In this document: positions 22,826-48,882 of the stretch, in pieces
Layout of the letters: every line of letters starts with the position of its first letter
How positions within the stretch are numbered: position 1 is the first letter of the stretch
Source: Tremella fuciformis
Taxonomy: Eukaryota; Basidiomycota; Tremellomycetes; Tremellales; Tremellaceae
DNA length: 64,000 nt
Assembly: GCA_032768795.1 (NCBI GenBank)
Contig: CP136497.1
Coordinates: 1,490,501-1,554,500 of the forward strand
Reading direction: 5' to 3'
The notes under the pieces: generated by a model
Told to the model about the DNA's origin: nothing
The model's database searches: none
What the model saw: the letters and a program-made list of their open reading frames with translations, nothing else
Position numbers and translations under genes: made by a program

Positions 22826-22948
22826 GCCAATTGTATTATTCCGGCAATTTCTCCCATTTATCCCGCAACTTCTTTCAGTGGGGCTCCTCATGTCCCCCTC
22901 AACTTCCTACAATAGACCTTCGATCGCATACATCTAGCCCGCAACTCT
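22826..22948 (+). repeat. Left terminal inverted repeat of the MULE
   Basis: Pairs with 48751-48871. The best conserved blocks read CCGGCAATTT, CCATTTATCCCGCAACTTC, TTTCAGTGGGGCTCCTCAT and ATCGCATACATCTAGCCCGC. Divergence is mostly in the segment around 22898-22920. Contains one GATCGC. Confidence 0.9.
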
Positions 22949-26107: not shown

Positions 26108-26269
26108 GTATCAGAGAGTGCTATTACCTCTTCGCACAACCACGCACACCCGGGGCATATGCCCATCGAGACTCGACGTTCGACATCACTCAACCCGAAC
26201 CACGAGCACCAAGCTTTACCACAGTCCCTTCGTCTTCCTCCTGCTAGCCGGTCTAGCACACCCAACAAC

Positions 26270-30200: not shown

Positions 30201-31235
30201 CTTGTCGTCGTCGACCGGCTCACCAAATGGGCTATCTTCATCCCTACGACAACTCGGCTCAACACGGCAGGCTTGGTCGACCTTGTCCTCGACAATGTGG
30301 TAGCGCAGCATGGGCTACCCACGAGCATCATTTCGGATAGAGGAAGCAAGTTCACCAGCAAGCTTTGGGGTGCAATGTGCAGCACCCTCGGCATCAAGGT
30401 CAGCCTTTCGACGGCCTTCCACCCTCAGACGGATGGGCAGACAGAGAGGACAAATCAAGCCCTCGAACAATACCTGAGGATCTTCTGCGACTACAAGCAG
30501 GACAACTGGGCTACTCTCCTCCAGCGAGCGGCGTTCGCGTACAACAACTCAATGCATTCGGCAATCATGATGACGCCGTTTGAAGCAAATTTCGGCTACG
30601 CCCCAAGGTGGGCAGAATCCATCGTCGTCGATGGAGAGGCTCGAGAGATCCCATCAGTCGTCGAGAAGTTTGCTTCGCTCGAGGAGGTGCACGCGTTGTG
30701 CAAGAAGAACATCGAGCTCGCCAATGAAGCATACGCTAGAGGGTATAATGCCAAGCATCAGGAGGCCCCCGAGATGAAGGTAGGGGACCAAGTGATGCTG
30801 TCGATGGAAAACATACAAACTCGACGACCCTCGAAGAAGCTCGACTTGAAATGGTGTGGACCCTACAGGATCATCGCAAAGGCGGGCAGCGCGTACAAGC
30901 TTGAGCTGCCCGACACAATGAAGGTCAATCCAGTCTTTTCGGTGGACCGACTCAAGGTATTCGAGCCACCGACGCTCCCAGGACAAACATACGATCCGCC
31001 AGGGCCTGTGGAAGTCGACGAGGAAGGGGAATCATTCGAGGTGAAGAGGATCATCGACTCGAGGAAAAGGAGAGGGCGATTGGAGTACAAGGTGGAGTGG
31101 CTCGGGTATGAGGGAACGGATGAGGCGACGACATGGGAACCGGCAGGGAACATTGATGGAGCCTGGGCGAGCATTGAGAAGTTCCACAAGGAGAACCCGG
31201 AGAAACCAGGAGGCCAAGCAGCAACCAGGGCCTAA
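27226..31235 (+). CDS. Pol polyprotein of gypsy element 1 (one-base frameshift)
   Basis: Read by -1 shift from the end of gag. Order: aspartic protease (VLLDTGATGNFVDS); reverse transcriptase (MVVDYRKLNEMTVPDAYPLP, catalytic YIDDILI); RNase H (TDASVYGWG ... TEKEFLAIV); an acidic repeat EDEEGG; integrase zinc finger (HHEGQLAGHPG ... CAVCQRC) and DDE core (MDFIEELPAS, HPQTDGQTERTNQ); and a C-terminal chromodomain (VKRIIDSRKRRGRLEYKVEWLGY...TTWEP). The chromodomain marks it as a chromovirus, a type thought to target particular chromatin. Frame is lost at the start of RNase H near 29141-29150 (gatggggttc), where the sister element reads WGFVIS. One base is missing, so this copy is probably not autonomous unless the base call is wrong. 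Confidence 0.88.
29597..29690 (+). repeat. 18-bp minisatellite inside pol
   Basis: About four to five tandem copies of a unit like GAAGACGAAGAAGGAGGA, coding for repeated EDEEGG in the linker between RNase H and integrase. The sister element has an acidic linker here (EEEEEEVGEE) without the tandem units. Confidence 0.85.
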
Positions 31236-31358
31236 GTGAAGCAGCGACAGAGCATAGGCTGAGAAGCAGTGAGCGGTGAGAGACATACATGCGGCAAGAT
31301 ACAAGAGTCAAGACGGCAAAAGCAAGAAGCAAGAAGTAAGAGACAAGACAAGCTACGG

Positions 31359-32952
31359 TCAAGATGTTCCCTCGAGAAACTCCCCAAGTGTCAACTCGTC
31401 GAAGTTAACACCCAAGTCACCTGCGATGTCTCGCGCCCGTGAGATAAAGTAGGTACGCATCGGTGCTTGAGTCTCTCGGCGAGCGAAGTGACTCAATTGA
31501 AATAACTCTTGCCACCGGCGGTCTGGGGCAGAGGTCGAGGTCATTGGAGCGGGTGGTGGTGGTGTTGGCGGCGGTAGCTGCATCATGGGAGGGGGTGGAG
31601 ACCAGTGAGAAGTCCTTGATGGTCCGGCTTGAGGTACAGGATCGAGTCCGCCATCCCCTAGCCAACCCGTGCCAGCGTCATCCATCGGTTCCGGAGCAGG
31701 GGGAGGGAGCGGGCTCAGCCTACTCGTCGAGGTAGGATGCCCCGAGCGGAGCCTCTTGTGTGACAACGGTGACGAAATGGGCGAGGACGAAGAGCGAGCC
31801 CGACGTTTCTCTCTTCCCTTTCCCTTCCCTTTCTTCCCAGAAGCCTTGACCGTGCCCGCTAGGTCGATGTTGGCGAGGCCAGCAGCCAAGGTCGTCGACG
31901 TGGACCGGGCTGCAGCGAGTCGGCCGGAGCGTCGGGCGCCGGGCGTGACGGGCGAGGGAGACGTGCCGCGGGCGAAGGACACCTGACGGCGCCGTGCCGA
32001 TGACGAGGGGCCAGGAGTTACCGTGCCGAACGAGCAGGCCAGGGTGCCGCACGTTAGGCACTTCACTTTCTTGCCTTCCTCGACGATGCGACACGGGAGG
32101 TCGTCGGTGACACACGCCTCACATCGCTCATCCCCTTCTAGAACCCGGATCGGCCGTGAACCCGCTTGTTGCTGAATGTCAGAGGATACCAAGTAGCTGA
32201 CAATACTCACCCGGGCCCATGTCAGAGATCTGTTGTATCCCCGTTGTCCTCGGTCGGGGTAGTGGGAGCCTACTGATCAGTTTGGGCGAAACTTGCAGAC
32301 TTTACTTACCAAAGAACGAACGGTCCAATGGCTCTGACTCCGGGACCGGCAGTCCCCATCCCTTCTTCACATAGTATGCCTCCTCGGAGGCATTTCGCGG
32401 GTCAAATCGCCGGCTAGGAGAAATCTCCTCCTCGGACAAGCTCGACGATGCCGGAGTGTCGGGCGCTAGCTCGTCCACATCAGCCTCTACATCCAACTCC
32501 TCCTCCCCCTCTTCCTGTGGGACAGCCGCGGCAGGCGCATCGCTGAGTAGCTCCGCAGCTTGTTCGTCGGGCGGTGGGATGGCTCCGACGGCGGGGAGTG
32601 GAACAGCCTCGTCGACTGTTGGGATGTCGGCAGTCGAGGCGGCTTGCGTGGGGGATGGGAAGGGGGTGCCTTCGGGTTGGGCGGTGCCGGCACGAGATGG
32701 GGATGGGTTGGACATCGAGTCGACACTGACAGTCTCAAATCGAGAATCGGTTTCTGTGCAGAGTGTTACTGACCCGTCTGAGTCAGAAGATGCCTCGTCT
32801 ATAGTTGCCGTAGGGGTTGTAGGAGAAGGATAGGACAGCGCGTTGTCTAGAGAACTGCTGTCGAAGAGGATGTAGGGAGATGGAGGGGGCGAGCTTGTGG
32901 TGAAGGTGGATGCGTCGAGTGTTCTTGGTCTCGAGAGGTGTAGCCAGGGCAT
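31359..32952 (-). CDS. Antisense accessory gene of gypsy element 1 (six-cysteine motif)
   Basis: Lies between pol and the 3' LTR on the opposite strand. A long acidic, Pro/Ser-rich N-terminal exon (from MPWLHLSRPR at 32952; PSRRFDPRNASEEAYYVKKGWGL near its end) is spliced over introns at about 32309-32230 and 32211-32174. The next exon holds CEAC-x6-C-x10-C-x2-C-x4-C (GDERCEACVTDDLPC, KCLTCGTLAC). After that come Ser/Pro-rich sequence and a C-terminal helical block (MRTYFISRARDIAGDLGVNF, DELTLGEFLEG). The cysteine spacing resembles, but does not equal, fungal Zn2Cys6 clusters. The same spacing occurs in the antisense gene of element 2. Function unknown; a DNA- or RNA-binding regulator is a reasonable guess. 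Exon 1 may start further upstream. Confidence 0.65.
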
Positions 32953-33298
32953 AAGGCGTGAGTTGAGGTTGATGGTGGGGATGAGAGCGCTGACGCCCTC
33001 TCCCCCCTCTGTTTATGTCGTTTTCGAGCACCCCGCGACATGGCGACGCCCTCGAGCATCACGAGGCTACCTCGACGACGGATTGGCAGTCCTTTCACCG
33101 TTTCCTTGACGACCGCTCGACGACTTGTCGCCAGAGTTTCGCTCCCGGTACAAGCGACGTCATTCGACTGCTATCTCGACTCATGGATCGGCAATGCGGG
33201 TGTGCTCGACGAGGACGAGGACGAGGACGAGGATGAAGGCTGGAGTGGATGGAGATAGCGCGTGTCTCGCAGGAGCTCGACTTCAAAGGTGGGCAGAG

Positions 33299-33733
33299 TG
33301 TCACGACGGCCACGCCCTCGACGACCTACGCACGTGACCAACACCTCTCACGTGAGCGACACGTGACCTACCTCGGGCTGGAGAACCTCGACGAGGGAGT
33401 AGACGTTGAATGAACGCGCGACGGCGGGAAGCAGGCGCAGAGTCATATAGGATGCCCCGGGCGCCCGTCGTAGTTCTTCAGCACTCTCTGATTGAGTCTC
33501 ATGGATCACCATTGACGATCTCACTCTCTCCGTGGCACGCAGCGTGGCTGAGTCGCACTCACGCTGTATCCTCGACGACCTTGTTACCTCGACGACCTTG
33601 TAACCTCGACGAGGATCCAACCTCGACGAGGATCCTACCTCGACATCCTCGTTTCTACCCCTTTATCCTTTATTCTTGACTCTGATATTGTGCGAGAGGG
33701 CCTCTGCCAACGGGAGAGCGCAGCATCGTGACA
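33299..33733 (+). repeat. 3' LTR of gypsy element 1
   Basis: 435 bp, apparently identical to 25673-26107. Followed directly by the target duplicate CGGAG and the resumed MULE cargo gene. Confidence 0.95.
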
Positions 33734-34059
33734 CGGAGATAGCGAAGCAGCAAGTCGACGGGTTACTCGGTCGCGCACGCAACGTGATTGAGATCTTAAA
33801 AGATCGATCGAATCACACCGAGGACGAGAGCATGCTCATGAAAGAGGACAACAAGAAACTTGAAGCGCGACTGAAGGAGACCGAGGCACAGCTTCTTGCT
33901 CTGCATCAAGAACACTCAGAGATTCCTGTCGCTGTTCAGACTGAGCTTGCATCTCTGCGGGCGCGTTGCCAGCACTATGTCGAGAAGTATGAGAGCGGCG
34001 GAGATGAGGTGACTGCTCAGGAGGCTGGGCCCTCCACAGCAGCGGTGCAAATTGTGTAG
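33734..34059 (+). CDS. MULE cargo gene, 3' part: end of the coiled-coil protein
   Basis: After the duplicated CGGAG the frame resumes at 33739 as IAKQQVDGLLGRARNVIEIL. It continues a heptad-rich coiled coil (MKEDNKKLEARLKETEAQLL) to a stop at 34057-34059 (TAAVQIV). Deleting 25673-33738 joins the two halves in phase, which confirms they are one gene split by insertion. No start codon of its own is expected. The 3' flank (34060-34282) has several GATCGC words. Confidence 0.8.
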
Positions 34060-34282
34060 CGCATGTGTCTATCCATGTTTGATTTGGAGCTGTACATATC
34101 GCGATCGCCAACCTGTATACACATAGACTCCGTTCTCGATTCGTTATGTCTAGATCGCATCTGTATATAGTCATGTATCACGCGATCGCTCTGAATAAAT
34201 CATAGATAGGGAGTGCGATCAGGAGTCGAACCAGCCCACTGCTTCACATGGCTCCTACCTATCTACACAGTCTCGCTACTCC

Positions 34283-34894
34283 TCAACAAGCTCTCCATAT
34301 GTCCTGCCTAACCTCGAAGATGCACTCTTTGAGTGTGGCCCGTTCTTGTTCGCCTGACCAGCTCGACCTGCCCTCTGCCCAGAGCACAGCCATGCAGTGC
34401 ACCCAAAGTGCTCTCCTTAGATTGACTCCCTCGGAAGGCGCTAGTCCCAGGCGACGATTCTGCTCTGAATCATCCAGATTTTGTCGACAAGGCTTGAGAC
34501 CTTGAGCTAAACAGACGGCGGCTGTTGCGGCCAGTGGCCCGCAATTGTAGGAATCCTCTTGCTCGAACCAGCCGATCGCTTCGCGCCAAGTCGATGTGTT
34601 AGGGCAGATAATCCAACCTCGATTGGTATCCTCGTCCACCAGACAGCGCTGAAGCTCCCATTCGAGACGTCGATCGAGTTGATCGCGCCAGAGAGAGTAT
34701 AAGTGCGGATGATCCAATGCGCCCCCTTTCCCGTCGTAGAACACCAAGAGGCGTTGCTCGCCAAAGATCGCCAATGTGCAAAAATGCAAGTTCGGCGCCG
34801 CGCTGATAGGAATGAAAGTAACTTTCTTCCTCCAAGCTGCCGTCGGTCCTAGCACTTCCAAGGGGTAGCGATTCTGTGCGATCGCCAGTCGACC
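34283..34894 (-). CDS. Ulp1-like (C48) protease domain: 3' part of the split transposase-protease gene
   Basis: Begins at the gypsy insertion (LAIAQNRYPLEVLG) and ends at a stop at 34283. It is the last domain of the protein that starts at 48503. The Ulp1/SENP catalytic set is visible: His in NLHFCTLAIF (codon 34784-34786), Asp in VFYDGKG (34733-34735), Gln in WFEQEDS (34559-34561) and Cys in SYNCGPLAA (34541-34543). Ulp1 enzymes mature SUMO or remove it from proteins in the nucleus. It is short, about 200 residues, so it is a minimal catalytic core. Ulp1-like domains are known in some other transposons, for example plant Kaonashi-type MULEs; here it follows a second, USP-type protease in the same frame. 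Confidence 0.8.
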   Translation of the reverse strand, partial: GRLAIAQNRYPLEVLGPTAAWRKKVTFIPISAAPNLHFCTLAIFGEQRLLVFYDGKGGALDHPHLYSLWRDQLDRRLEWELQRCLVDEDTNRGWIICPNTSTWREAIGWFEQEDSYNCGPLAATAAVCLAQGLKPCRQNLDDSEQNRRLGLAPSEGVNLRRALWVHCMAVLWAEGRSSWSGEQERATLKECIFEVRQDIWRAC

Positions 34895-35407
34895 TGTCAC
34901 GACGACCGCCGTCTCTGTCCAGGGCCCGGCGGGCACGTACTCCAAACGGTCGGCGTGGGGGTCGTTGACGTCGATAGGTATGAGCGAGTTGGGCGAGGAG
35001 CTCGGCGAGGGACTCGCTGAGCTCGGGGAGGTGAGCGAGGGGCTCGGCGAGGGACTCGCTGAGCTCAAGGAGGTGAACGGGTTGAGCGAGGGGTGCGGCG
35101 AGGGACTCGCTGAACTCGGCGAGCGGGAAGGTGAACTCGACGAGCGCGAGCGAGTTGAGGGAGGTAGACGGGGAACTCGGCGGGGGACTCGGTGTCACTG
35201 GCAAGCCAAGCGACGGGACGGAGCAGGCAGTCTACGTGTCTGCAGAGAACAACAATTGGGAGAAGACTACGGAACGTATCGCGCGCCCAGTCTTCCTAAG
35301 TATCCGTCGTCCCTCGGTGAGCTCGGCGAGTGATGCGTTGAATCAACGAGTCCGAGCTCCGTCTCCCCACGTGGCTTCCATGTGCTCTCCCTACGTCCGT
35401 CGTGACA
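34895..35407 (-). repeat. 3' LTR of gypsy element 2 (element on minus strand)
   Basis: 513 bp. Contains near-tandem units of about 50 bp around CTCGGCGAGGGACTCGCTGA (about 34995-35115) and four exact CTCGGCGAG words. Differs from the partner LTR at three bases within the first 60 bp. Confidence 0.93.
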
Positions 35408-35668
35408 CTCTGCCCAACCTTACGATCGAGCTCCTGCGAGATAGTCGTGGTTGTGGAAGTCGGCGGCGGAGTCGGCGAGGTCGACGAGGGACTCGGCGAG
35501 GGGCTCGGTGAGGGACTCGGCGAGACGGTCAGCGAGGTCCTTTCAGGTACGATGTTGATGCGGCGAGGCGCGCTAGTTGCTGGGCAACCAAACACACGGC
35601 CGAGGACAAGTGGACAGAGGACTCAGCTTTTCCATTCTCCGTTATCTCATCACTCGGCCAGCAACAAC

Positions 35669-37331
35669 ATGGCCCCAACAACACCAGCGGCAACGCGCAA
35701 GGCGAGCGCGGCGAGACGACGAGCCCAGGCGGAGGGGCAGACCAGTGAGTCGGCGCGCGCAGCGCGCCGAGCGAGCGAACTGGTGGCTGACGCGAAGGGT
35801 GGGGCGGGCGGTTCGTCGTGCCGTCGAGGGTAGCCCTGGTTGTGCAGGGCCAGGGGGCGGAGCGAGGGGGGGAAGGGGGGCGAGAGGAGCAGCCGGCGCG
35901 ACGTGAGTGGCCGAGAAGAGGGAGATGCAGAGCTGACGGGAAGGATTCGACGGCACCCAGCGGACTTTCGGTCGCGGGCGCGGCACTCGTCGAGAGCGCT
36001 CGGCAAGCGACGAGCTCGAGATCGAAGAGCTCGGCGAGGAGGAGGTTGCCGGGGAGGTGATGAGGGGAGTGGTGGACGGGGAGGAGGAGGAGGAGGAGGG
36101 GGAGGAGGAGGAGGAGGAGGAGGAGGGCGATGGCGGCAGCTCGCCGCTGACGCAGCTCGAGCAGGAGGACGAGGAGATGGAGGTGGACGGGGGCGGCGCG
36201 GAGAGGCTCGAGCTCGAGCCTGCCCTGCCGGTGGACGAAGGAGAGGGCGAGCGGATGGGGCGGCGCCGGCGTAAGCCACAGCGGCACTATCAAGAAGAGA
36301 TGAGACTGACGGGCAGGAATCGAACGAACCGATAGCGTGTTCGACGCCGAGGCAAGCTGGCGGGCCGGAGCCACCGCCTACCTCAACCCCTTCGACCGAC
36401 CCGACTCGGAGGCCCCAATGTGCGACGTAGTTTACTCCGTCGTGCATGACTTACCCTTGGGCGAGCGCCTACCCACGCCGCCGCGCACACGACCCAGTCG
36501 CCGACCGCAAGGAGAGGCAAGCGGCTCGCGCGGCGAAGTGAGCGAGGTCAGGGAGGTCAGCGGGGCCGACGACGTCGACATGGAGGCGGAGGAGGCGGCT
36601 GAGGCCGCGCTGCAGGCGGCGGCCGAGAGGATGGAGGCCTCCATGGAGGCACTGCAGGCGGCGATGGGCTGGAAGGGCAAGGGGAGGGAGGAGGGGGAGA
36701 GGAGGGGAGAGGGGGAGGGGGCGCGGAGACCGACACCGCGAGCGGCGCCGCGGACGCCTGCGGCGGCCGCGACACCTTCCCGGAGACCGGCAGCGCCTCC
36801 AGCGACCCCGCGACGAGCCGGGCGGCACGAGAATCGGACGCCAGCGAAGATCCTCGTTAGTACCCGTCACAACCAGCGGTAGATACTTATCAGCAGGACC
36901 ACCACAAGGACGCGGTAGACGCCGAGCGGCCGTGTCGTTGGTGTAGACAAGAGGGACGCCGCTGCCTCGTCCCGCCGGGCACAATAGGCCGAAAGTGCTT
37001 CACCTGCACAACCGGCCGCTGTACTCTGAAGGATGGGGAGGCGCCGTCCAGCTCGCCGACCGCCGAGCGGACGCCACTGCGCGGCGACCCCCCGGCGACA
37101 CCTCGGCGCGACGCGCCCGCGACACCTCAGCGGTCTGCGGAACGCCACATCGGTCCAGGCGACTTTGCAGCCGCCCAGGGCCTCGCGGCGCTCGCGCGCA
37201 GCCCGGACAACCCCCGACTGCGTCAGTACGCCGTAAATGAGCTGCGGCGCATGCTTGGGGAGGATCTGAGCGAGTGGGGTCTTGACGACCTCAGCGAGGG
37301 ACCGGCCCCCGGTGGGTCGGGAGGACGATAG
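35669..37331 (+). CDS. Antisense accessory gene of gypsy element 2 (six-cysteine motif)
   Basis: Opposite strand to pol, between pol and the 3' LTR. Probable start MAPTTPAATRKAS (35669). A very acidic Glu-rich stretch lies around 36075-36130 (GAG repeat), followed by RRRRKPQRHYQEE, then a second acidic region (DDVDMEAEEAAEAALQAA) and introns. The last exon, in the frame of 36933, holds CRWCRQEGRRC then KCFTCTTGRC: C-x2-C-x6-C-x10-C-x2-C-x4-C, exactly as in element 1. The end, YAVNELRRMLGEDLSEW then GLDDLSEG, resembles the element 1 C-terminus. The stop is at 37329-37331. Splicing in the middle is uncertain. Function unknown. Confidence 0.6.
36078..36130 (+). repeat. GAG trinucleotide repeat
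   Basis: Nearly pure (GGA/GAG)n run encoding poly-Glu in the antisense gene of element 2. A likely length-variable site. Confidence 0.8.
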
Positions 37332-37422
37332 GAGAGGGGAAGGGGTGTTCATAGTCGTTGATTATAGAGTGCTCTGTGCATCATTTTCGTGAACGCATTA
37401 TTCAGGCAGGAATACGCAGTAT

Positions 37423-40400
37423 TCATACCGCTCGGCGAGCGCCTCGCCGAGGCTTCGGCGCACTTGATGGCTTCTCTGGGTGAGCGGCGTGGAAGTCCGC
37501 GACGAGTTCGGCGGCCGACTCGCTCACATGAGCTAACGGCTCCCAAGTCGCGTGCTCATCCGTGAGCTCAAAGCCCAACCATTCAACGAGGTACTCAAGG
37601 CGTCCACGGCGTATTCGAGAATCCAGGATCGCCGCAACCTCCCAGCTCTCTCCCAGCTCGCTGTCCACTTCCACCGGGTCGGGAGGCTCGTACGACTGAC
37701 CGGGCAAGGTGGGCTGTTGGAAGGGTTTCAGGAGGTTGACGTGGAAGACGTCGTGGCACTTCATGGAGGGAGGGAGAGCGAGGCGATACGTTACCGGGTT
37801 GACCTGCTCGATGATCTCGAACGGTCCACCGAACTTGAGGTCCAGCTTCTTCATCGGTCGCCGAGTCTCGATGTTCTTCAGCGAGAGGAGCACCGAGTCA
37901 CCGATCTTGAAGCTGGGCGGCGACGAGTGCTTAGCATCGTAGTGCCTCGCATAGTCGCGGTTCGCCGCCTCGATGTTAGCCCGGCAGAGCTCATGCAGAT
38001 CACTCAGCTCCGTTGCCTTCCGCAGTCCCAGTCGTTCACCGGCATCCGCACCCTCCTTCTCCGAGTTCTCCGAGTTCACCAAGTCCTCCGTCCACCTCGG
38101 CGAGTACCCAAAGTTTGCTACAAACGGTGACATCTCGATGGCCGAGTGCTTCCAGTTGTTGTACGAGAACGATGCGCACGGCAAAAGCTTAGCCCAATTG
38201 TCTTGCTGATAGGTCGAGAAGACCCGGAGGTACTGCTCGAGAACTTGATTTACCCGCTCAGTTTGCCCATCAGTCTGCGGATGGAAGGCCGTGGACAAGG
38301 ACAGCTTAATACCCAAGGCCTTGCACAGGTTGGCCCACAGCTTACTGGTGAACTTGGAACCTCGGTCAGAGACGATGGATTGCGGGAGCCCGTGTTGACA
38401 GACCACGTGATCAATGATCAACTCGGCGAGTCCCGCCGAGTTGAGCCGAGTGGTCGTCGGAATGAAAATCGCCCACTTCGTTAGTCTGTCAACAACCACC
38501 AGAATCGAGTCAAAACCGTTAGAGACCGGCAGGGGCTCGATAAAGTCCATGGAGATGGATGCCCAGGGCCTCTCAGCTATCTCCAGCGGCTGGAGGAAGC
38601 CGTGAGCCCGGTGACGGTCGGTCTTGGTCCGCTGACATACTGCGCATGCGCGGACGAAGGCCTCCACGTCGCGCCGGAGGCCAAGCCACGCGTAGTCGCG
38701 CTTCACCAACTCGAGAGTCTTCGTAACGCCCGGGTGTCCTGCGAGGATAGCTTCGTGCCGCCTCTTTAGAATCTGCACCCGTTCCGGCCCCGGTTCCACG
38801 TACAGTCGTCCGTCGACTCGCAGCCTTCCCTCGGGGTCACGCTGCAAGAGCGCTTCCCCAGAGAAGCCGAGCCTTCGGCAAAATCCCAACAGGACGGGGT
38901 GAGTCGAGGAGAGAGTAGGCGCGTCAGAGGTTAACTCAGCCAGGACCGGGGACAACTCGGCGACCTCAACGCGTTCCTCGCCGACCTCTTCCTCCTCCTC
39001 CTCCTCGACACCGATCTCGCCGAGTGTTGCTGCACGGAGGAGATGGCGTAGGGAGGACGAGACCGTGGAGGAAGAGTCGGCGGTGGGGAGTGCCTGGATG
39101 AAGTTCTGCGGCTGCTGCATCAATGGCCCTGGGAGATACGCCGAGTCCCGGGAGAGCGCATCGGGAAGTTCGCCCTCCTTACCAGGGCGATACACGATCT
39201 TGTAATCGAACCCAGCTAAGATCTCAACCCATCTAGCCTGGCGAGGGTTCAGCTGCCGCGGTTCCATCCAGTAAGTAAGATTCAAGTGGTCAGTGATGAC
39301 CGTAGAATGAACCTGGGACAACAGATGCCGTTTACGTCGGAAGGCGTGAACGATAGCCAGGAACTCCTTCTCAGTCACCGTGTAGTTCAACTCGGCGCCT
39401 TTGAACGAGCCCGACTCAATGGCCACGGGGTGCTCCTCGTTCGCCGAGTTGACTTGCGAGATGACGAAGCCCCAGCCATAGGCCGATGCGTCAGTCTGCA
39501 CAATCGTCGGCAACTCCGGGTTGAAGAAAGCGAGCACCGGAGCCTGGCTCAGTTTCTCCTTCAGCGCCTGGAACGCCTGTTCCTGCTCCTCATCCCAATG
39601 GAAACCGACCGACGCTTTCGTCAGATGGTGTAGCGGCCCGGCGACTTTAGCGAAGTGGGGAACGAATCGCCGATAATAGCTCGCCATTCCCAGGAAGCGC
39701 CGCACCTCATGGAGATCCTTGGGCCTCGAAGCCTCTTGGACCCCTTGGACGTAGCCCGGATCAGCCGCCACGCCGTCTTTGGAGATCAAGAACCCCAGGA
39801 ACTTCACGGATCTCTGCTCAAACCGGCACTTACTCGCCTTCAGGAACAAAGAGGTTCCTCGCACTCGCTCCAGAACTAGCCGAGTGACTCGGCGAAGCTC
39901 CTCGAGTGTCTTGGCGTGGACGATGATGTCGTCGATGTATACCGTGACCCACTGCCTGAGATCACTGAACAGCTCATTCAGGAAGTGCTGAAAGACGGCC
40001 GGTGCGTTTCGCAGCCCATCACGCACGACCAGCGACTCGTACATGCCAAACGGCGTGCGGAAGGCGGTGAGGCTCTCAAATCCTTCGGCGAGCCTGAGCA
40101 ACTGGTACGCCGAGACCAGGTCAAAGCAGGAGAACCACTCGGAGCCACCAAGGTCAGAGATGACTTGAGAAATCAACGGAACGGGGTAAGCATCAGGAAC
40201 GGTGGCGCTGTTCAGATGTCGGTAATCCACCACCATTCGCCAGTTCACGCCGTCAGTCTTACGCACGCAGAAAGTCGGCGAGCCGTACGGCGAGTTGCTA
40301 GGCCGGATCCGGCCCGCGGCTTCTTCTCGCTCGAGGATTTGCCTCATAGCCTCCTTCTGATCTTGGGCGACCTCATAGAGCGGGGCAAGCTTGAGCGAGC

Positions 40401-41634
40401 TGCCCTCCTTCAGCTCGATCTTCATGTCATAAGCTCGGTGCGGTGCAAGAGTCTCGACGCCCTTCCTGGGGTGGAAGACGTCGAGGAACTCCAGGTACTG
40501 GTCAGGAACGCTGGCGGCAATCAGCTGAATCTCGGCCTCAGAGAGTTCGGCGGGCGGTTCGAAAGAGGGCCATGAGCTGAGCTCATCCAACTGGTCGAAC
40601 CTCAGCGAGCTCGGCGAGTCTGTGGCTACCGCGCACAGTTTCAGCTCTTCAGCCACCGCAACGAATGGCCAGCGGCAGGGAAGAGTCACGGGGATGGAGT
40701 TTGAGCGAGAGAACGCGCGTTTCTTTGTTCCCATCCGCCTCTTTCTAACTCGCCTCTTCCCCGGCTGCTGCTTCCTCAGCGAGGGCTCGGCGCTTGGCGA
40801 CCGTCCTGCTCGATCATCCTTGGTCGACAAGCAGGGGGAAGGCAAGGTGTTGGGCAGCTCAGGATCAACGGACTCGGTAGGGACAGCGGGGCAAGGGGAA
40901 GAGCAGGGCTCAGGATCAACGGGCACAGGGGACTCGGCGGACGCAGCGGATGTAGGGAACTCGATAGACTCGGCGACTTCAGGGGACACGGTGGACTCGG
41001 TGGGTTCAGGGGACACGGTGGAGCTCGGCGGCGGAGAGAGAGAGAGAGATGAAGGGATTGACTCGGCGACATTGGAAGTGGGAACGGGCTCTGCCCAACC
41101 TTGCGAGGGTGCTCCCGTGACAGTTCCCTCGCCGAAGTCGATTACAACTCGGCGAGTTCGCAGCCACGGGTAGCCCAACACTGCATCAGCTCCATTCAAG
41201 CGCGTGAGCTCGAACCTTGCTGTGCCAGCATACTGGCCCACCTCGACTCGCTCGCGAGAGAAGTGAGTCAGCGGGCCATCAGACGACTCTACTCCGTCAA
41301 ACAAGGTGAGTCCGACGGGCTTGTCGTACGCATTGAGGGCAATGCGGTGTCGCTCGGCGAACGACTTGGCGAGGAAGTTAGCGGAGGCTCCTGAATCCAG
41401 GAGGATCTTCGCGGGATGCCCGCTGATGCGACCTGCGACAACAGCGTGCGTGGGGTTGTCTAGGAGCCTCTCAGAGGCTGCCCAACCTTGTGGGGAATCA
41501 GTGTGAGTCACGGGTATACGGGTATCATCGATCTGGGATGAAGGAGAACGGGAACAGTCAGAGATTACGGTCGCGGCGAGTCGATGCGGAAAGGGATGAT
41601 GCTCGCCGAGCTGTTGTCCACCATCCCTCAGGCT
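37423..41634 (-). CDS. Pol polyprotein of gypsy element 2
   Basis: Uninterrupted frame of about 1,400 residues. It is open in the -1 frame from the end of gag, and is read by slippage at CCCAAAA just before the gag stop. Order: aspartic protease (ILLDSGASANFLAKSF); reverse transcriptase (WRMVVDYRHLNSATVPDAYP, VYIDDIIVHA); RNase H (TDASAYGWGFVIS, TEKEFLAIVHAF); acidic linker; integrase zinc finger (HPGVTKTLELV ... CAVCQRTK) and DDE core (MDFIEPLPVS, HPQTDGQTERVNQ); and a chromodomain near the C-terminus (VAAILDSRIRRGRLEYLVEWLGF...ATWEP). It would copy and integrate the element in the nucleus. All catalytic motifs appear intact, in contrast to element 1. Confidence 0.93.
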   Translation of the reverse strand, partial: SLRDGGQQLGEHHPFPHRLAATVISDCSRSPSSQIDDTRIPVTHTDSPQGWAASERLLDNPTHAVVAGRISGHPAKILLDSGASANFLAKSFAERHRIALNAYDKPVGLTLFDGVESSDGPLTHFSRERVEVGQYAGTARFELTRLNGADAVLGYPWLRTRRVVIDFGEGTVTGAPSQGWAEPVPTSNVAESIPSSLSLSPPPSSTVSPEPTESTVSPEVAESIEFPTSAASAESPVPVDPEPCSSPCPAVPTESVDPELPNTLPSPCLSTKDDRAGRSPSAEPSLRKQQPGKRRVRKRRMGTKKRAFSRSNSIPVTLPCRWPFVAVAEELKLCAVATDSPSSLRFDQLDELSSWPSFEPPAELSEAEIQLIAASVPDQYLEFLDVFHPRKGVETLAPHRAYDMKIELKEGSSLKLAPLYEVAQDQKEAMRQILEREEAAGRIRPSNSPYGSPTFCVRKTDGVNWRMVVDYRHLNSATVPDAYPVPLISQVISDLGGSEWFSCFDLVSAYQLLRLAEGFESLTAFRTPFGMYESLVVRDGLRNAPAVFQHFLNELFSDLRQWVTVYIDDIIVHAKTLEELRRVTRLVLERVRGTSLFLKASKCRFEQRSVKFLGFLISKDGVAADPGYVQGVQEASRPKDLHEVRRFLGMASYYRRFVPHFAKVAGPLHHLTKASVGFHWDEEQEQAFQALKEKLSQAPVLAFFNPELPTIVQTDASAYGWGFVISQVNSANEEHPVAIESGSFKGAELNYTVTEKEFLAIVHAFRRKRHLLSQVHSTVITDHLNLTYWMEPRQLNPRQARWVEILAGFDYKIVYRPGKEGELPDALSRDSAYLPGPLMQQPQNFIQALPTADSSSTVSSSLRHLLRAATLGEIGVEEEEEEEVGEERVEVAELSPVLAELTSDAPTLSSTHPVLLGFCRRLGFSGEALLQRDPEGRLRVDGRLYVEPGPERVQILKRRHEAILAGHPGVTKTLELVKRDYAWLGLRRDVEAFVRACAVCQRTKTDRHRAHGFLQPLEIAERPWASISMDFIEPLPVSNGFDSILVVVDRLTKWAIFIPTTTRLNSAGLAELIIDHVVCQHGLPQSIVSDRGSKFTSKLWANLCKALGIKLSLSTAFHPQTDGQTERVNQVLEQYLRVFSTYQQDNWAKLLPCASFSYNNWKHSAIEMSPFVANFGYSPRWTEDLVNSENSEKEGADAGERLGLRKATELSDLHELCRANIEAANRDYARHYDAKHSSPPSFKIGDSVLLSLKNIETRRPMKKLDLKFGGPFEIIEQVNPVTYRLALPPSMKCHDVFHVNLLKPFQQPTLPGQSYEPPDPVEVDSELGESWEVAAILDSRIRRGRLEYLVEWLGFELTDEHATWEPLAHVSESAAELVADFHAAHPEKPSSAPKPRRGARRAV

Positions 41635-42893
41635 TTTGGGGCCTGTCCCTGGGCGGGAATCGGGGGCAGCGGCCTCGGCTTAGCGGTGGGGCAGTTAGCC
41701 AGCTGGTGGCCGGCCTGCCCGCACCGCAAGCAGAGCCCGCTGTGCAAACGGCGCTCCCTCTCGGCCTCCGTCAGAGACCCATCGGGGTTGCGCGTTGACT
41801 TCAGCAAGTCTGACCCAGAAGGGCCCGAACTCGCCGAGGACTCGCCGCGCTGCTCGCTGGGGCGAGCAGGCGGGAGCGACGCGCCCAAGCGCTCAGCCCA
41901 TGGGCGTCGCGCTGGCGCTTCAGCCTTGGCATACTCCGGCTTGTGCTTTTCAGCCTTCGCCGCAGCAGCCTCCTCCAGCTTCCTCTCCTCCTCGCGATGA
42001 CGGAGGCGATTGTCTAGAGGCACAATAAACTCGACGAGCTCGGTCAGCGAGTAGAACTCGCCGCGCTTAGCGATCTCGTCCTTAAGATGAGACTTGAGCC
42101 CATGGATGGCCCAGTCCACAATCGCGACCTGATCAGTGAAACCAGCAACCGCAACAAGCTCCCTGACCTTAGCGAAGTGCTCGGCAGCTGACTTGGTCTG
42201 CCGCAGCGCTCGAAGTTGTCGCTTTGCCGTACCCCGTTTGTCCGGGTCGCCGAAGGCGGACTTGAGGTACCTTTTGAACGCGTCCACCGTTGCGAGCTCG
42301 GCGGGTCGCGGCCGCATACCTACCATCGGCTCGACAGACTGAAGAGCCGGTCCCCGCAGGTACGAGATCATGAACGAAACCATGATCTCCTCCGACTGGT
42401 ACCTGCCCCCATGCAAACTGAACATCAGCTCGCACTGCAACAGGAACCCTTTCAGCTTGGCGGGATTCTCCCCAGAGAAGGTGTCAGGCTCCTTGACCTT
42501 CGGCTCCTTCGGCGCGCCGCTCGCTGAACTCGCCGGGCTGAACGAGGGAGCTCGCCCTCTTGGGCGGAGGAACTCTTCTTCCTCCTGAAGCTCGAGGCGG
42601 GCTTCCTCAAAGGCTTCGCGGCGGATATTCCACCGCTCGAGCTCTTTCAAGAAGAGCGCCATGCTCGCCGCATCACTGATGTCGGCGGGAGGTGTAGGCA
42701 TTGGGCCCAAGCCTCGGCGAGCTCGCCGAGACTCTGACGCCCTGGGAGTGTCAGGCGGGGTAGCCCCGCCTTCTTCCTCCCTAGTCACGGTCACGGCAGG
42801 GGGAATGGGTGGTGCAGGAGGCTCCTCCTCGGGCTCATTGAGCCTGGGGGATCTCCTGGGTAGACGAGAGGATTCAGGTGCGGAAGGAAACAT
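41628..42893 (-). CDS. Gag protein of gypsy element 2
   Basis: 421 residues from MFPSAPESSRLPRRSP. Pro/Glu-rich N-terminus, Ty3-type capsid region (FSGENPAKLKGFLLQCELMF ... FGDPDKRGTAKRQLRAL), and a zinc knuckle CLRCGQAGHQLANC (C-x2-C-x4-H-x4-C) near the end. The last codons are C CCA AAA GCC TGA, matching the slippery gag end of element 1. Confidence 0.9.
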   Translation of the reverse strand: MFPSAPESSRLPRRSPRLNEPEEEPPAPPIPPAVTVTREEEGGATPPDTPRASESRRARRGLGPMPTPPADISDAASMALFLKELERWNIRREAFEEARLELQEEEEFLRPRGRAPSFSPASSASGAPKEPKVKEPDTFSGENPAKLKGFLLQCELMFSLHGGRYQSEEIMVSFMISYLRGPALQSVEPMVGMRPRPAELATVDAFKRYLKSAFGDPDKRGTAKRQLRALRQTKSAAEHFAKVRELVAVAGFTDQVAIVDWAIHGLKSHLKDEIAKRGEFYSLTELVEFIVPLDNRLRHREEERKLEEAAAAKAEKHKPEYAKAEAPARRPWAERLGASLPPARPSEQRGESSASSGPSGSDLLKSTRNPDGSLTEAERERRLHSGLCLRCGQAGHQLANCPTAKPRPLPPIPAQGQAPKA

Positions 42894-43002
42894 GATGAGG
42901 AGGGCTCAGAGAGGGAGAGAGAGGCCTCGACGAGATGAACGAGGAGAAACAGGACTCAGCGGTCTGGGTACGTGTCCGACGGTAGTAGTCTTCTCCCAAT
43001 AC

Positions 43003-43515
43003 TGTCACGACGACCGCCTTCTCTGTCCAGGGCTCGGCGGGCACGTACTCCGAACGGTCGGCGTGGGGGTCGTTGACGTCGATAGGTATGAGCGAGTTGG
43101 GCGAGGAGCTCGGCGAGGGACTCGCTGAGCTCGGGGAGGTGAGCGAGGGGCTCGGCGAGGGACTCGCTGAGCTCAAGGAGGTGAACGGGTTGAGCGAGGG
43201 GTGCGGCGAGGGACTCGCTGAACTCGGCGAGCGGGAAGGTGAACTCGACGAGCGCGAGCGAGTTGAGGGAGGTAGACGGGGAACTCGGCGGGGGACTCGG
43301 TGTCACTGGCAAGCCAAGCGACGGGACGGAGCAGGCAGTCTACGTGTCTGCAGAGAACAACAATTGGGAGAAGACTACGGAACGTATCGCGCGCCCAGTC
43401 TTCCTAAGTATCCGTCGTCCCTCGGTGAGCTCGGCGAGTGATGCGTTGAATCAACGAGTCCGAGCTCCGTCTCCCCACGTGGCTTCCATGTGCTCTCCCT
43501 ACGTCCGTCGTGACA
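43003..43515 (-). repeat. 5' LTR of gypsy element 2 (element on minus strand)
   Basis: 513 bp, TGTCACGACGA...CGTCGTGACA, three differences from 34895-35407. Followed at 43516-43520 by the duplicate CGACC and the resumed transposase gene. Confidence 0.93.
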
Positions 43516-46500
43516 CGACCCATCGGGCGATCGATTAGGTCTGCCATGGCGTGTTCGCCCCGCCACGCAGGGGATCGCAGAGATGCGGAGATCGCTACAT
43601 CGACGCTTTGACACAGATCGCTAATCAGCCAATTGGTCCACCACCTTGTCTGTTCCGAGAAATATCTCATGGTGTCATCTGTGTCCATTCCGAAGGTCCG
43701 TCCGAACGTTGTCATTCCCGCGATCACGTTTCCCGACTTGCGCTGTCGCTCCAATTCGCTTCGACCTACTGCGAACAAATCGAAGGTAACATCGGGCAAG
43801 ACCGGCACAATGGAGACGAGGGGTCGCACGTCTGCCCAAACTATCTTCTGGTAGCGGACCAACGCCTCTGCCTCAAGAGCGTGTTGTTCTTCAAGTTTTA
43901 CGGCTAGCACGGCATAATCAAACTCCACCAGTGGCGGGGCGTTTGTTTTGACCAACACAACCTCGGGCGATTCTGACACTTTGTTGAGGGACCTGGACAC
44001 CGCCTGGGACCGTTGTTTTACCCTCTTCGACCGAGCAGCCGCGCCAGCCATCAGGCTAGGAGATGGCGGTGGGGGTACGACACGTTCGCTGAGGCCTTTT
44101 GGGTGTGAGAGTGCAGTTCTTGCCATAGCTGCTTGTTGCAGGTTTCGATTCGAGATCGCGGCGACTATGGGATTGATCTTGTCCTCTGCTGGCTTGACTG
44201 TTGACAAGGACGAAACCGCGATTCGTGGTACGGCTCGTTCGTAGACAAGGTAAATTGGTAGGAACGGTCCTCTAAAGGCGTCTTGCACGCCACTGAGCCT
44301 GGTCGCTCTATGATCGCTGAGTCTCCACCAATTTCCCTCGTGCCGCAAGATCAGACAATAATGCCCCGCACTCGTGTCCACGCCCGATCGAACAATCACG
44401 TACGATAAACTATATCGTACATTTGAGGTCGCTCCCGAATTCGAGTAGAAGAGTGGAATGTCAACCTCATGTTCGATCGTGAAAGATAGCGATCGCTGAG
44501 CCTCGTCGGTCTCGAAGGCCTTCATTGGATATTGAGGATGAATTGCGAACAGATCGCCAAGCTGCGAATAGGCGATCACGGACTTCAGAAGATCATGGTG
44601 CCCGCAGCTCCCACAAGCCAAGGCAAGTGGCGGGAGGGCGTGTACACCCTCAATGGAGTGGCGCACGAGACCAGTCACACTGCGATCGAACAGTGAATCG
44701 TTCGCCGGGTACGCGGTCTGGCTGATGCCATGAATACTGGTGCAGTCCTGTGATGGCAGATGAGATTCGCATGCCCGACACTGGAAGCGAACTGCAGAAA
44801 CGTGCTCAAATGCCAGCCGATAGCTGTGATCGCCGACCAAGGTATCCATGTGTTGGACTAGTTTTTCGAGAAACTCAACTGGATCGTGTTGGTTTGACGA
44901 GTGGTCATCGATCAGATCGGCATCTGATCATCAGACTTGAGCCGTGACGGCTTCGAATAACTCACTCATGAGACGTTCTTGAAGGCCCATGAGTGTTACA
45001 GCTGCACCGTTCTGGATCGCCTCTCTTGCTTGCAAAATGTACGGGAAAACGGCACCGGCTGGATTTTCCGTCTGAAGAAGTTTTGCGCGATTCGCGGAGT
45101 CCAGGCTATCGAGCGCCGCCAGACGCGACCACATTCCCAGGATACACAGGGCAAAGCAGTCCGTTGATGGATTCAAGAATCCCGTGGGAGGCAATTGTGG
45201 GGTCAATTTTCCCGGTCGCGGAGTCAAGCTTGATCGCTGTGCCTTCTGGTGGGTTGGAAGCTTGTGGGTTCGCGATATGACGTGAGGAGCAGGACCAGAT
45301 ACTCGAGACGCTTCACCGGACCCCTTTTCTGCATGATCGCTCGCCCGAGCGCCAATTCCCCGGGAGACAGATTGGGCCAGGTCTTCCGCCTGGTCGCTGA
45401 TCGCGATCACGGGTTTATGGGGTACCTCAGTTGTTGCAAAGGGCTTGAGCAGCTGAGTCGAAGGTTGATGTCGTCTTGCGATCGGCCCAACAGACCACGA
45501 TCCATCGAGATCGGTCTCAAGCAGTCCATTCTCGGCGTTTGTGTATGTCCAATCAAAGTTGCCCAGAACCTCGTCAATCTCTCGCTTTGTCTCAGCGCCC
45601 AAGACGAACGCAGAGTCATCCCCAGTCCCCTTACCCGCCTGTCCGGCCAATGAGCGCATGTAGCGTTGTATCTTGGCGGAGGAATTGAAGGACTTCTGCT
45701 CGTAGGTGGTAATGTCATTTGCCGTTTCGAATGCGGCCATTGCCCAGAGATGTTCGCAGCGTTTTCCGGTTTGTTCGAATGCAGTGCAAGAGCAAAATTG
45801 TCGGGCATCGCACTCAGAGTTGCCGTTCGCACCTTGGAGGGGTGCTTCCGAGGCGATCCACCATCCGCAGTACTGAATCTCTTTACCCGTATCTCCAGCG
45901 ATCGAGAAGACCGGGTTCGCGCGCCCTCGGTATGCCAATGGAACCTCATTTTGGTCAAGGCGAAGGACGCGATCGGCCTCCCAAGCATTGAATCCGGCGA
46001 ACAGTTGTCGAACAAGCTTCGGATCAGGTCGCGATCGTTCCAGCCAGTTATGTCTATAAAAGGGGAAGTAGATCTGAAGCAAAACCATGATGAGGCGGTC
46101 GATTCTGTAGATCAGTCGCGGCGCACCAGGCTGAAATTTTACGCACGGTTTGTTCATCCTGCACAGCAGGAACACGGCGTCGAACGTCTTGAATAAAGCC
46201 TCCGCATAGTTGTTCGTTGACCACGGCCCGTCTCTGGTGATGTGCCCCGGCATTCCATAGTCCACGGCATGATCCCTCCAGTGATCGCTAAACCACGTTC
46301 GCAGCAAATAGGAGGAGATGAACTCCCAAAAAGCTTCTCCTTGCCGGCCACCGCCCACCACGCCGCGCATATCATTTTCGAAGTCTTTCCAGTATTGGTC
46401 CCATTGCGATCGATAGGGACATCTTTGGAGTCGGCGAATGAGGCGGAGAGCGGTCTCTGTATGGGTGTCGGAGATGGGGGTCGGCCCAAAATGCCCTCGC

Positions 46501-48503
46501 AACACTGCCCTGCAAGACTGCATCAGGTGAAACTGGCAAACTCTGATGCAACAGCCTGGGAATACTGTCAAGATCGCTCGCCGCTCGGCCCCGCTCGCAT
46601 CGATCATGAACATGGCGGGCTTGAAGCCCTCCTGTACAATTGCGCGGCAGTTGTTCATAAGGTCTTCGTGGAACTGCGGAAGGCAAATTGGTTTGCGTTC
46701 GCCGTTTGCGATCGCCTTTGCTAGCTTGACAATTGCCTCCTTCAAGACACGCAGGAATGCCGTGTAATCCTCACCTCTGATCCGAGTATGCACGTTCGCC
46801 GCGACTAGATGGTCAATTGACGTGCTTGACTGTTCGCATAGGACTTGCCTGGGGTCATCCGGTGAGTGTCTCCCAACGTAGACACCATTGTCAATGGAGC
46901 CTTGAGGGAGTTCTTGTTCTTATGCGACGTGTCTAGAAACAGTCCCCGAACCGGGCCGTGAAGGATCGCGGCTTCCAAAGCATGCTGAGGAGCAATGATA
47001 CACGAGAAGTCATCATCGAGGCTCTGAGGCATCGCGGCCCGTCCCTCAATCTCAGCAAATCGCAAGCTGCAAGTAAGCATCAGGTTCATTATGGAGAGAC
47101 TCACTGAATGATATCACTGTGATGGATTTCCTGTAGCATGGCGATCGCGGCAACAGGGTCCGCGTGCAGCCTCTGGCGACGCAATGCGGTGCGAACAGAG
47201 GACTCATACACGCGACTCGAGGCAGGCAGGCGGTGGGGTGCTTCTCGCTGCAGAAACTGCAGATGCTCATCGGCCTCTATCATGTTCGATTGGAACCCTG
47301 AAACTGTCAACTGGTTCGCTTGCCATGAGAAATCAAACGCACGTATTCGCAGCTGAGTCGGCGTTGTTCCGATTTGACTCGCCAGTCGTTGTAGAAGATT
47401 GCGAACGTAACCCGAAACTCGCAGACAGGAGAGTGACCATGGTCTCCGGTGACATGTCGGTAAGGTGATCCGACAAACACCTCTCTGGACGTCTCGTACT
47501 GTCATTCGCACCTTCGATCAGCTGATCGCCCCGTCTTCTTGCTGATCGCTTACCACCAACACCTGCCCGCATTGCTCGTTCGACTCCGCAGTTTGCAATG
47601 GACTCGCAAGACGACGCCTCTTCCTGTGTCGATCCTCCTCATGAGAGGTCCCCACTCTCCGCTCGTCCACTTCATCAGTCGTCACGGGGATCATGCGATT
47701 GAAGAACTGCCTTGCTTTCACATAGGTGACAAACTCCTCAGTTCCGATCGAGCGCGATTGGGCTTTCTCGCCAGGGCAAGCCTCGTCACAGGCTCGCGAA
47801 CACTTGAATATCGACCGCCAGACAAGCCGATCTGGCTCTAATCCTGTGCTATTAGGTATGGAGAGATGGAATCGCCTTGATCGAATGTCTGCCGGAATGT
47901 ATCCAGGAGGATCTATCGGTCGCACCTCGACACAAGCCGAGTATGTTTGCTGATAGATCTCCCAATCGTGTTCCTGCAAGCTTAGGCAATTGTTGACCAT
48001 TATTAGAGCTGATGACCCACGAGAGCGTCGAAGACCTTGGGAAGATCCAAGAGAGCTACTTCCTGCTCGAAATAGGAAGGTGTCTCATGCAGACGATCGT
48101 ACAGGGAGACATGAAGCGCGTGTAGCTTGCGATCGAGCCCGGGGATGTCGACCAGGGGCTGTGTCACATACATGACTCGCTCACAAGCTGGCGCAAGCTT
48201 ATCGATCAGAGCCCGAGTCCTTCTACCAGCTGATCGCGCTGAACATGGTGACCAAGGCGCGTCCGACTGCTGTGTCGCATGCGACCGATAGGAAGGTGGG
48301 ACGCTGGAACCCTCAGAATGCTGGCTCGGAGTGACAGCTGCTGCTACGGGAGGGGTCGCCGGAGGAGGGTCAAAGAGCTCATTGGGCCTCTTTCTTGGCC
48401 CGTTAACATAGGCCTTCCGGGGACGCCCTGGGCCTCGACGAGGTGCTTGTGGCACGACACCGCCTGCGATCGCCAGGGCTATAGGCTTCTTGTCGTGAGT
48501 CAT
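43516..48503 (-). CDS. MULE transposase fused to a USP-type deubiquitinase (5' part of the split gene)
   Basis: Multi-exon gene. Exon 1 (MTHDKKPIALAIAGG) carries an AT-hook-like PRRGPGRPRK. It joins over a 48-nt intron to EHDWEIYQQTYSAC and a Cys-rich patch (KCSRACDEAC). The MULE catalytic core follows: Asp in GLFLDTSHKNKN (46931-46933), Asp in MIDASGAER (46599-46601) with CQFHLMQSC, and Glu in STNNYAEALF (46200-46202). A SWIM zinc finger comes next (FCSCTAFEQTGKRCEHLW). After a linker the same frame enters a USP/UBP domain: Cys box GFLNPSTDCFALC (Cys 45156-45158), a 42-nt intron (44924-44965), QHDPVEFLEKLV, zinc-ribbon pairs CRAC and CGSCG, and the His box SAGHYCLILRHEGNWWRLSD (His 44361-44363, Asp 44313-44315). 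At 43516 a gypsy element interrupts; the frame resumes at 34894 in an Ulp1 domain. Exon ends between 46793 and 47964 are uncertain. The start could lie further upstream. Confidence 0.78.
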
Positions 48504-48750
48504 TATGCGCGAGAGGTGTGAGCATGAACATAACACTGCATCTGTACTTTGTTTGTGTCTATGTCTAGGTTCGCCCTCAATCCTGCTCTGAGTCAAAGTC
48601 AGGGTTCAGCGTTGAATGATAGATGGTGACTCAAGTCGGTGCGATCAGGGTTGAAAATTTTTTGGGGCCAGCGAACAGCCAGATGAGTGCTTCTGACGTA
48701 CTCTGAGAGGACTAGCTGCAGTGCAGAGAGCCAATCGCTGCCATATAACA

Positions 48751-48871
48751 AGAGTTGCGGGCTAGATGTATGCGATCAGGGGACTGATGCACGGACTTGA
48801 GGGGTAAATGAGGAGCCCCACTGAAAGAAGTTGCGGGATAAATGGAGGAAATTGCCGGAAAAATTATACAC
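48751..48871 (-). repeat. Right terminal inverted repeat of the MULE
   Basis: 121 bp, reverse complement of 22826-22948 with scattered mismatches. The outermost bases read GTGTATAATTTTTCCGG on the minus strand. Followed by the duplicate GCCTTTTGTGG. Confidence 0.9.
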
Positions 48872-48882
48872 GCCTTTTGTGG
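48872..48882. repeat. Right target-site duplication of the MULE (GCCTTTTGTGG)
   Basis: Exact 11-bp direct copy of 22815-22825. Confidence 0.85.

Follow-up and report, generated by a model that had tools for sequence, protein, structure and literature searches.

A Mutator-like element of Tremella fuciformis with a predicted transposase joined to USP and Ulp1-like protease domains

Several kinds of mobile element carry a protease of a type that acts on ubiquitin or ubiquitin-like proteins. The window analysed here, 64,000 nucleotides of contig CP136497.1 of the basidiomycete Tremella fuciformis, holds a Mutator-like element (MULE) whose gene A would encode a transposase followed, in the same chain, by a ubiquitin-specific protease (USP, peptidase family C19) and a Ulp1/SENP-like protease of clan CE. 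The nearest described systems are the Ulp1 Mutators (KAONASHI or KI-MULE, and KIU; melon, rice and grapevine, and also hydra and lancelet), which like gene A combine a MULE with a Ulp1-type protease (PMC13317346, PMC2836005). In KI-MULEs, the ULP domain is reverse-oriented and is one of three coding genes, whereas in gene A it shares both strand and chain with the transposase (PMC2528002, PMC13317346); in some grapevine families of Ulp1 MULEs, Ulp1 does have the orientation of the transposase (PMC2528002). The available portions of these descriptions mention no USP, whereas gene A has both proteases in the transposase chain (PMC13317346, PMC2836005, PMC2528002).

Similar associations are found outside the MULEs. 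Ginger1 of hydra and other animals resembles gene A in having a protease at the C-terminus of its transposase, but this transposase is of the Gypsy-integrase type, its protease is either Ulp1 or OTU (in one case Ulp1 with PHD), and the published table contains no USP (PMC2836005). A Trichomonas IS5-like transposase_11 with Peptidase C19 (XP_001314237.1) shares the C19 domain with gene A; it belongs to a different superfamily, and the part of the paper that cites this one protein mentions no Ulp1 (PMC2836005). Cryptons and plant CACTA elements also carry a C48/Ulp1 peptidase, but with a tyrosine recombinase or a Tnp2 transposase, and with no USP mentioned in the portions available (PMC3212892, PMC2528002). 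Mutyl and MuDR are, like the present element, autonomous MULEs with a second open reading frame (ORF; MutB and mudrB, respectively); the accessible text mentions no protease for them, whereas the second gene here is convergent and coiled-coil-like (PMC6446971). The main text of the same survey, covering 1631 MULEs, does not contain the terms protease, peptidase, ubiquitin, ULP, USP or SUMO (PMC6446971). Transposases with one such protease are thus already in print, and a transposase predicted to carry both a USP and a Ulp1-type domain was not found in the literature, as judged largely by titles and the openings of abstracts. The novelty claimed in the original prediction, which was made from the letters of the window, narrows to the pair in one chain; transposons with a single C19 or Ulp1 domain had been published (PMC2836005).

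Gene A spans transposase and protease domains

On the minus strand, gene A begins with an ATG at 48503, ends with a stop at 34283-34285 and is broken in the window by a gypsy-like long terminal repeat (LTR) retrotransposon (Table 1). It was read from a natural copy of the same element, L010 (C4:1805710-1815065, 9356 bp, target-site duplication CGTGCTGAA), which has no interruption, and no artificial removal of the insertion was needed. L010 contains a 662-codon transposase ORF, a double in-frame stop and a 672-codon ORF with the C-terminal half of the USP and the Ulp1-like domain. The double stop falls inside the 42-nt intron 5, and with five introns spliced out L010 gives 1784 codons without an internal stop. 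The order along the chain is an AT-hook, an N-terminal region in which Cys residues are conserved, the MULE D-D-E core, a SWIM finger, a linker, the USP, a second linker and the CE domain; the linker from SWIM to USP contains conserved SPIGRR-like and GRPxxxRPLxPxR motifs. Intron 1 of the L010 model has two candidate acceptors, and intron 4, for which the rule gave none, was then found by eye as a probable GC-AG intron.

Much of the original prediction was borne out by this reading. Its ATG at 48503, its stop at 34283 and its 42-nt intron at 44924-44965 with donor GTGAGT (of phase 1) are exact in the window sequence, and the MULE Asp/Asp/Glu, the SWIM finger, the USP Cys and His, and the CE His/Asp/Gln/Cys that it had named could all be read there directly. 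It had found codon phase to agree across the gypsy insertion, and in both L010 and a further copy without this insertion, L009, 672 codons stay open from the second half of the USP through the Ulp1-like domain. Once the short intron is removed, L010 shows no break between the SWIM, USP and Ulp1 parts. The Ulp1 frame it had drawn is retained for the core (34286-34894), while its upstream part (34895-35194) is LTR sequence and not gene; the 42-nt intron stands, as one of five rather than the single one proposed; and beside the gypsy insertion a second LTR element (25673-33733) lies in the same MULE.

The genome was searched with the two ORFs, the searches scoring the best candidates only, and 16 transposase loci of this clade were obtained. 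They comprise nine element types (ref, to which the window copy and L010 belong, C11a, C6a, C2a, C3a, C5d, C4c, C5e and C1b), with near-identical copies (C1:8170k and C4:1812k of ref, C4b, C5c and C10) not counted as types. At 14 of the 16 loci, matches to both USP and CE follow the transposase on its own strand at a distance of no more than 20 kb, a count that includes C10:598172, where the proteases are about 16 kb away. None of 27 PF10551 matches of other MULEs had a USP or CE match within 20 kb in either direction, and Pfam scans of six ORFs of other MULEs found no protease; the domains that they did show were MULE and ZSWIM-type RNase H, in some cases with weak FAR1.

The in-frame TGATGA between the two L010 ORFs could also separate two genes that share strand and frame, a transposase gene followed by a USP-CE gene. 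The different frames of USP and CE in several types would fit such an arrangement. However, in all nine types the transposase ORF holds the USP Cys box, with the His/Asp box following in a later frame, leaving no single ORF with a whole USP. A gene broken at intron 5 would leave no complete USP, so that MULE and USP probably belong to a single gene; the prediction of a single gene with MULE, USP and Ulp1-like parts agrees with this division of the USP Cys and His between successive exons and with a domain order common to the nine types. Additionally, a phase-1 intron of 42-52 nt occurs at the homologous position within the USP in all seven types tested, and USP and CE share a single stop-free frame in ref. 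Two adjacent genes are, in our judgement, most improbable.

The intron and distance tests used seven of the nine types, C5e and C1b (partial) being left out. A strict intron rule gave a unique solution in six of the seven, and 7-28 of 1000 shuffled junctions also satisfy it. For C4c, which has no strict-rule solution, a 52-nt intron with the weaker donor GTGAAT was taken, and other acceptors fit too; for C11a and C5d an intron was obtained only with a wider donor rule, and each of the two has a second suitable acceptor once any AG or a longer intron is accepted. In C4c, positions 1-59 of the PF00443 profile score inside the transposase ORF at 24.3 bits in a genome scan, which is over the cut-off. 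Proteins P0003 and P0004, from two other sources, combine the MULE core, SWIM and the USP Cys box within a single ORF, and P0003 ends near the homologous intron site. From USP to the CE His/Asp, C2a and C3a also keep one frame.

Transposase core and the two protease domains

The three acidic residues of the MULE DDE motifs are present in the window and align across the clade. On the window or ref copy, the Pfam MULE profile PF10551 gave 22.8-25.2 bits (25.2 on the ref chain), below its cut-off of 27.6; it was above the cut-off in relatives at C5:574412 and C11:205340, and together with neighbouring pieces at C4:2260013, C5:2128283 and C1:8399437. A SWIM zinc finger is frequent, not universal, in MULEs. 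On the ref copy it scored 15.4-16.8 bits against a cut-off of 19.6. The finger is without its final His in C2a and C3a and seems to be so in P0003 too, the rest of the chain being kept. Near the N-terminus of gene A is a GRPRK motif, which we take to be an AT-hook.

Based on profile matches, the domain downstream of SWIM can be assigned firmly to the USP family. PF00443 (UCH) gave 29.1-30.2 bits on ref, 45.9 on C5d and 25.0 on C4c (cut-off 23.9), and PF13423 gave 34.7 bits on C4c and 31.6 on C11a (cut-off 22.2). The Pfam USP score on C2a, 20.6, is below the cut-off, and the Pfam scan of the C6a USP gave no match. In a profile search of the PDB, the C-terminal half matched USP9X/USP12 at 7e-11 to 9e-11. 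The Cys, His and Asp motifs occur in order in all nine types; in the window, the Asp of LSDH is at about 44313-44315, a derived position. USPL1, a member of the USP family, acts on SUMO (PMC8983731), and the substrate of the predicted USP may likewise be SUMO or ubiquitin.

Clan CE proteases have their catalytic residues in the order His-Asp-Gln-Cys with Q-x5-C-G spacing. Q-x5-CGP is found in all nine element types, and His...Asp in eight by pattern and in ref by direct reading. A CE profile was built from fragments of the nine types (16 rows). In a structural comparison (VIA) of an AlphaFold model, the first 46 rows were Ulp1/SENP-type, related ubiquitin-like or adenoviral proteases; neither VIA nor Foldseek ranked another family above the CE-type rows, a result that excludes nothing. 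Since these matches include SUMO, NEDD8, ubiquitin and viral enzymes, the CE domain may act on SUMO, NEDD8 or ubiquitin. The PF02902 (Peptidase_C48) scan of the whole genome gave two matches, both at C1:8288984-8289474 and none at the loci of this clade. The assignment to clan CE is a weak one, drawn from the motif and a weak model and not from Pfam C48. Of the profile families predicted for this copy, UCH scored as proposed (29-30 bits, cut-off 23.9), MULE and SWIM stayed below their cut-offs and C48 gave no score; the suggested models of the two protease folds were both weak (mean predicted local distance difference test, pLDDT, of about 54).

GATA-like zinc-finger motifs were seen by eye in the USP-CE linkers of two types (L011/L028, C4:2253-2258 kb; L035, C5:2132 kb); in C4c they are repeated. 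Pfam GATA gave 19.4 bits in C5d, below its cut-off of 26.8.

Shared inheritance and possible function

Pairwise identities among seven types are 33-58% for MULE, 20-44% for USP and 18-39% for CE. The MULE, USP and CE distance sets correlate (r 0.57, 0.85 and 0.41, reached by 61, 6 and 166 of 5040 permutations), which fits a joint inheritance of the three parts. Of the changes between recent copies in the protease frames, 17 are nonsynonymous and 18 synonymous, which gives a pooled dN/dS of 0.31 (Fisher p 0.0005). The comparisons C2/C4b ORF A, L010/L009 and L010/window are not part of the pool; the last two together contain three substitutions, two of them nonsynonymous and one synonymous.

MULEs are well known to capture host fragments (PMC13317346, PMC2528002), and the USP and Ulp1 parts could be decaying passengers picked up in the manner of a Pack-MULE. 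The breakage of the window copy and L009 by insertions would suit such decay, as would the match of C4:126810-135658 in pieces, one of them with a TAG. Passengers of this kind would nevertheless not be expected to keep their catalytic motifs in all nine types while USP and CE identities fall to 18-44% (seven types measured), nor to show a pooled dN/dS of 0.31, a fixed order and intron position, and presence at 14 of 16 loci. We consider passive capture very improbable.

At the level of sequence, chain order, single-gene structure, both catalytic motif sets in nine types, co-inheritance and recent mobility are established. An architecture kept across nine distantly related elements is probably used, and the double-protease arrangement is thus probably not accidental. 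Based on these data, it seems fairly probable that gene A of this two-gene autonomous MULE encodes a single transposase of about 1784 aa that includes a USP and a CE-clan domain, both of them cysteine proteases of a deconjugating type. We infer that the spliced protein is made and that both protease domains are active.

Several points weigh against this reading. An end-to-end gene model is resolved in one of the nine types (ref, via L010). The strict intron rule was set after a first look at the junctions. Frame continuity from USP to CE is seen in three types only; the CE domain of the remaining types is spread over at least two frames or contains an in-frame stop, presumably because of introns. 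The final SWIM His is replaced in C2a and C3a (the types of L049/L051), and C4c has HN, not HY, following the USP His. The AlphaFold model of the USP is weak (mean pLDDT about 54); alignment A2 misplaced USP N-terminal fragments, which were left out of A5, so that the N-terminal part of the model has no related rows, and the model includes 14 residues of intron read-through, an artefact. The CE model is equally weak (about 54); Foldseek gave no E of 0.001 or below for it, and its highest VIA Z was 7.1, a value at which the tool warns of a merely common arrangement. Pfam Peptidase_C48 (PF02902) has no match on the CE domain of the ref chain, and the best PDB profile matches of the CE domain are two Ulp-type proteases at E of about 0.4. 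The dN/dS value is drawn from 35 substitutions, and C3/C10 ORF B alone gives 0.58. Finally, protein-collection searches with P0002 and the USP-CE alignment A6, which each scored only some 8000 candidates, returned nothing, and the three-part MULE-USP-CE chain is therefore seen in this genome only. Viral contigs scanned with A1 gave eight pattern matches and no relative.

If the domains are active, the N-terminal DNA-binding part and the transposase core would place both proteases at the ends of the element. There, the USP could strip ubiquitin from the transposase-DNA complex, nearby chromatin or repair proteins, and the CE domain could strip SUMO or another ubiquitin-like protein at the same complex, chromatin or repair proteins. 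Removal of ubiquitin would spare the transposase complex from the proteasome, and removal of SUMO or a similar modifier might blunt silencing or favour repair, with the net effect that the transposase would be neither degraded nor removed and the element would not be silenced. Arabidopsis KIU/VANC proteins have been linked to element-specific hypomethylation, which provides a precedent for anti-silencing by Ulp1-bearing MULEs, although the role of Ulp1 itself there is described as unsettled (PMC13317346). A role in DNA repair has also been proposed for the single Ulp1 or OTU domains of Ginger elements (PMC2836005). That this is a so far undescribed clade of MULEs with a DNA-targeted double deconjugase as transposase, a single chain that locates the element, strips ubiquitin and a ubiquitin-like modifier there and so defeats degradation and silencing, is a more tentative suggestion, to which we would give slightly less than an even chance. 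The original prediction had likewise raised self-protection or chromatin editing as possible roles.

Both folds might instead be kept as ubiquitin- or SUMO-binding modules or scaffolds devoid of protease activity, in keeping with the high divergence and with the variable residue after the USP His (HN in C4c). We think this unlikely, as binding alone would not require the Cys/His/Asp and His/Asp/Gln/Cys sets that are kept in nine types. Likewise, one or both proteases could cut the chain itself, releasing the transposase and its partners from a polyprotein, as clan CE includes viral maturation proteases. Enzymes that act on SUMO and ubiquitin head the structural matches, and the conserved linker motifs SPIGRR and GRPxxxRPLxPxR could be something other than cleavage sites; self-cutting also appears unlikely to us.

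If a double deconjugase is indeed encoded, gene A would provide the first known case of a transposase directed against the two modifier systems together, and there would be a direct tie between the success of a mobile element and the modifier pathways on which silencing and repair in the host depend. Transposases with a single Ulp1, OTU or C19 domain have been published with no settled role for that domain, and two unrelated deconjugase-type domains kept together through deep divergence make the question of their role testable. The gene A product might additionally be a naturally occurring means of directing the two activities to a site on DNA.

The element, its copies and gene B

Taking terminal inverted repeats and 8-11 bp target-site duplications as the criterion for a MULE, the window element has both (Table 1), with the two LTR retrotransposons (34895-43515 and 25673-33733) nested in this one MULE. 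Its copy L009 (C1:8164434-8174356, duplication GATAGCGTCG) has an insertion of its own of about 0.56 kb in exon 3 of gene A (L009 7690-8253; solo-LTR-like, TGTCAC at its start and ATGACA at its end). This lies in the N-terminal part of gene A, and the protease ORF of L009 is whole. L010 and L009 are naturally without the gypsy insertion, and both of its flanks match the window at 99.9-100%. Aligned pieces of the two copies are 99.9-100% identical to the window, which indicates that the unit moved recently; similarly, the target duplications at the window, L009 and L010 (9, 9 and 10 bp) are each different, as expected of a recently mobile MULE. A broken close relative lies at C4:126810-135658, with transposase pieces 87-91% identical, one with a TAG; genome searches detected no USP or CE matches near it.

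Table 1 Features of the element in the window
Feature	Position	Strand	Remarks
Whole MULE element (gene A on minus strand)	22826..48873	-	carries two nested LTR retrotransposons
Target-site duplication CTTTTGTGG, left	22817..22825		9 bp
Target-site duplication CTTTTGTGG, right	48874..48882		9 bp
Left terminal inverted repeat	22826..22948	+	102/123 positions equal to right repeat
Right terminal inverted repeat	48751..48873	-	
Gene A (AT-hook, MULE DDE, SWIM, USP, CE-clan-like protease)	34283..48503	-	five introns
Intron 1, 47 nt	47974..48020	-	GTGGGT..GCAG; 71-nt alternative fits too
Intron 2, 69 nt	47485..47553	-	GTAAGC..CCAG
Intron 3, 38 nt	47067..47104	-	GTGAGT..GCAG
Intron 4, 44 nt, probable GC-AG	46805..46848 (= L010 7198-7241)	-	GCAAGT..CTAG
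Intron 5, 42 nt, phase 1, within USP domain	44924..44965	-	GTGAGT...TGATGATCAG, ends TCAG; contains TGATGA
AT-hook-like GRPRK	48414..48428	-	
First DDE Asp codon (LDTSHK)	46931..46933	-	
Second DDE Asp codon (MIDASG)	46599..46601	-	
DDE Glu codon (NNYAEA)	46200..46202	-	
SWIM-type zinc finger FCSCTAFEQTGKRCEH (FCSC...KRCEH)	45750..45797	-	
USP (C19) domain, split by intron 5	44229..45188, ends approximate	-	Cys codon 45156-45158; His codon 44361-44363
CE-clan-like (Ulp1/SENP-like) protease core	34286..34894	-	His 34784, Asp 34733, Gln 34559, Cys 34541
LTR retrotransposon (gypsy-like) breaking gene A	34895..43515	-	5-bp duplication CGACC
Second LTR retrotransposon, inside gene B	25673..33733		441-bp repeats 99.8% identical, duplication CGGAG
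Gene B (convergent, coiled-coil-like), first part of main ORF	24701..25672	+	
Gene B, remainder past second LTR element	33734..34056	+	

Gene B, broken in the window by the second LTR element (25673-33733), is downstream of and convergent to gene A in all nine types (L010 1786-3075, plus strand; L038, L030, L028, L023, L059, L060, L027 and L037). Pfam scans of gene B from ref, C6a and C5e, and of the further N-terminal and downstream ORFs that were included, gave no domain above cut-off. Its stop-to-stop ORFs are of 237-543 codons, several clipped by the end of the locus, and consist to 43-55% of E, K, R, Q, L and A. Judged by eye from composition and repeats, most of the products are predicted to be coiled coil, C4c being the weakest case. 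Two plus-strand ORFs of L010, 359-844 and 1073-1720, may be upstream exons of gene B.

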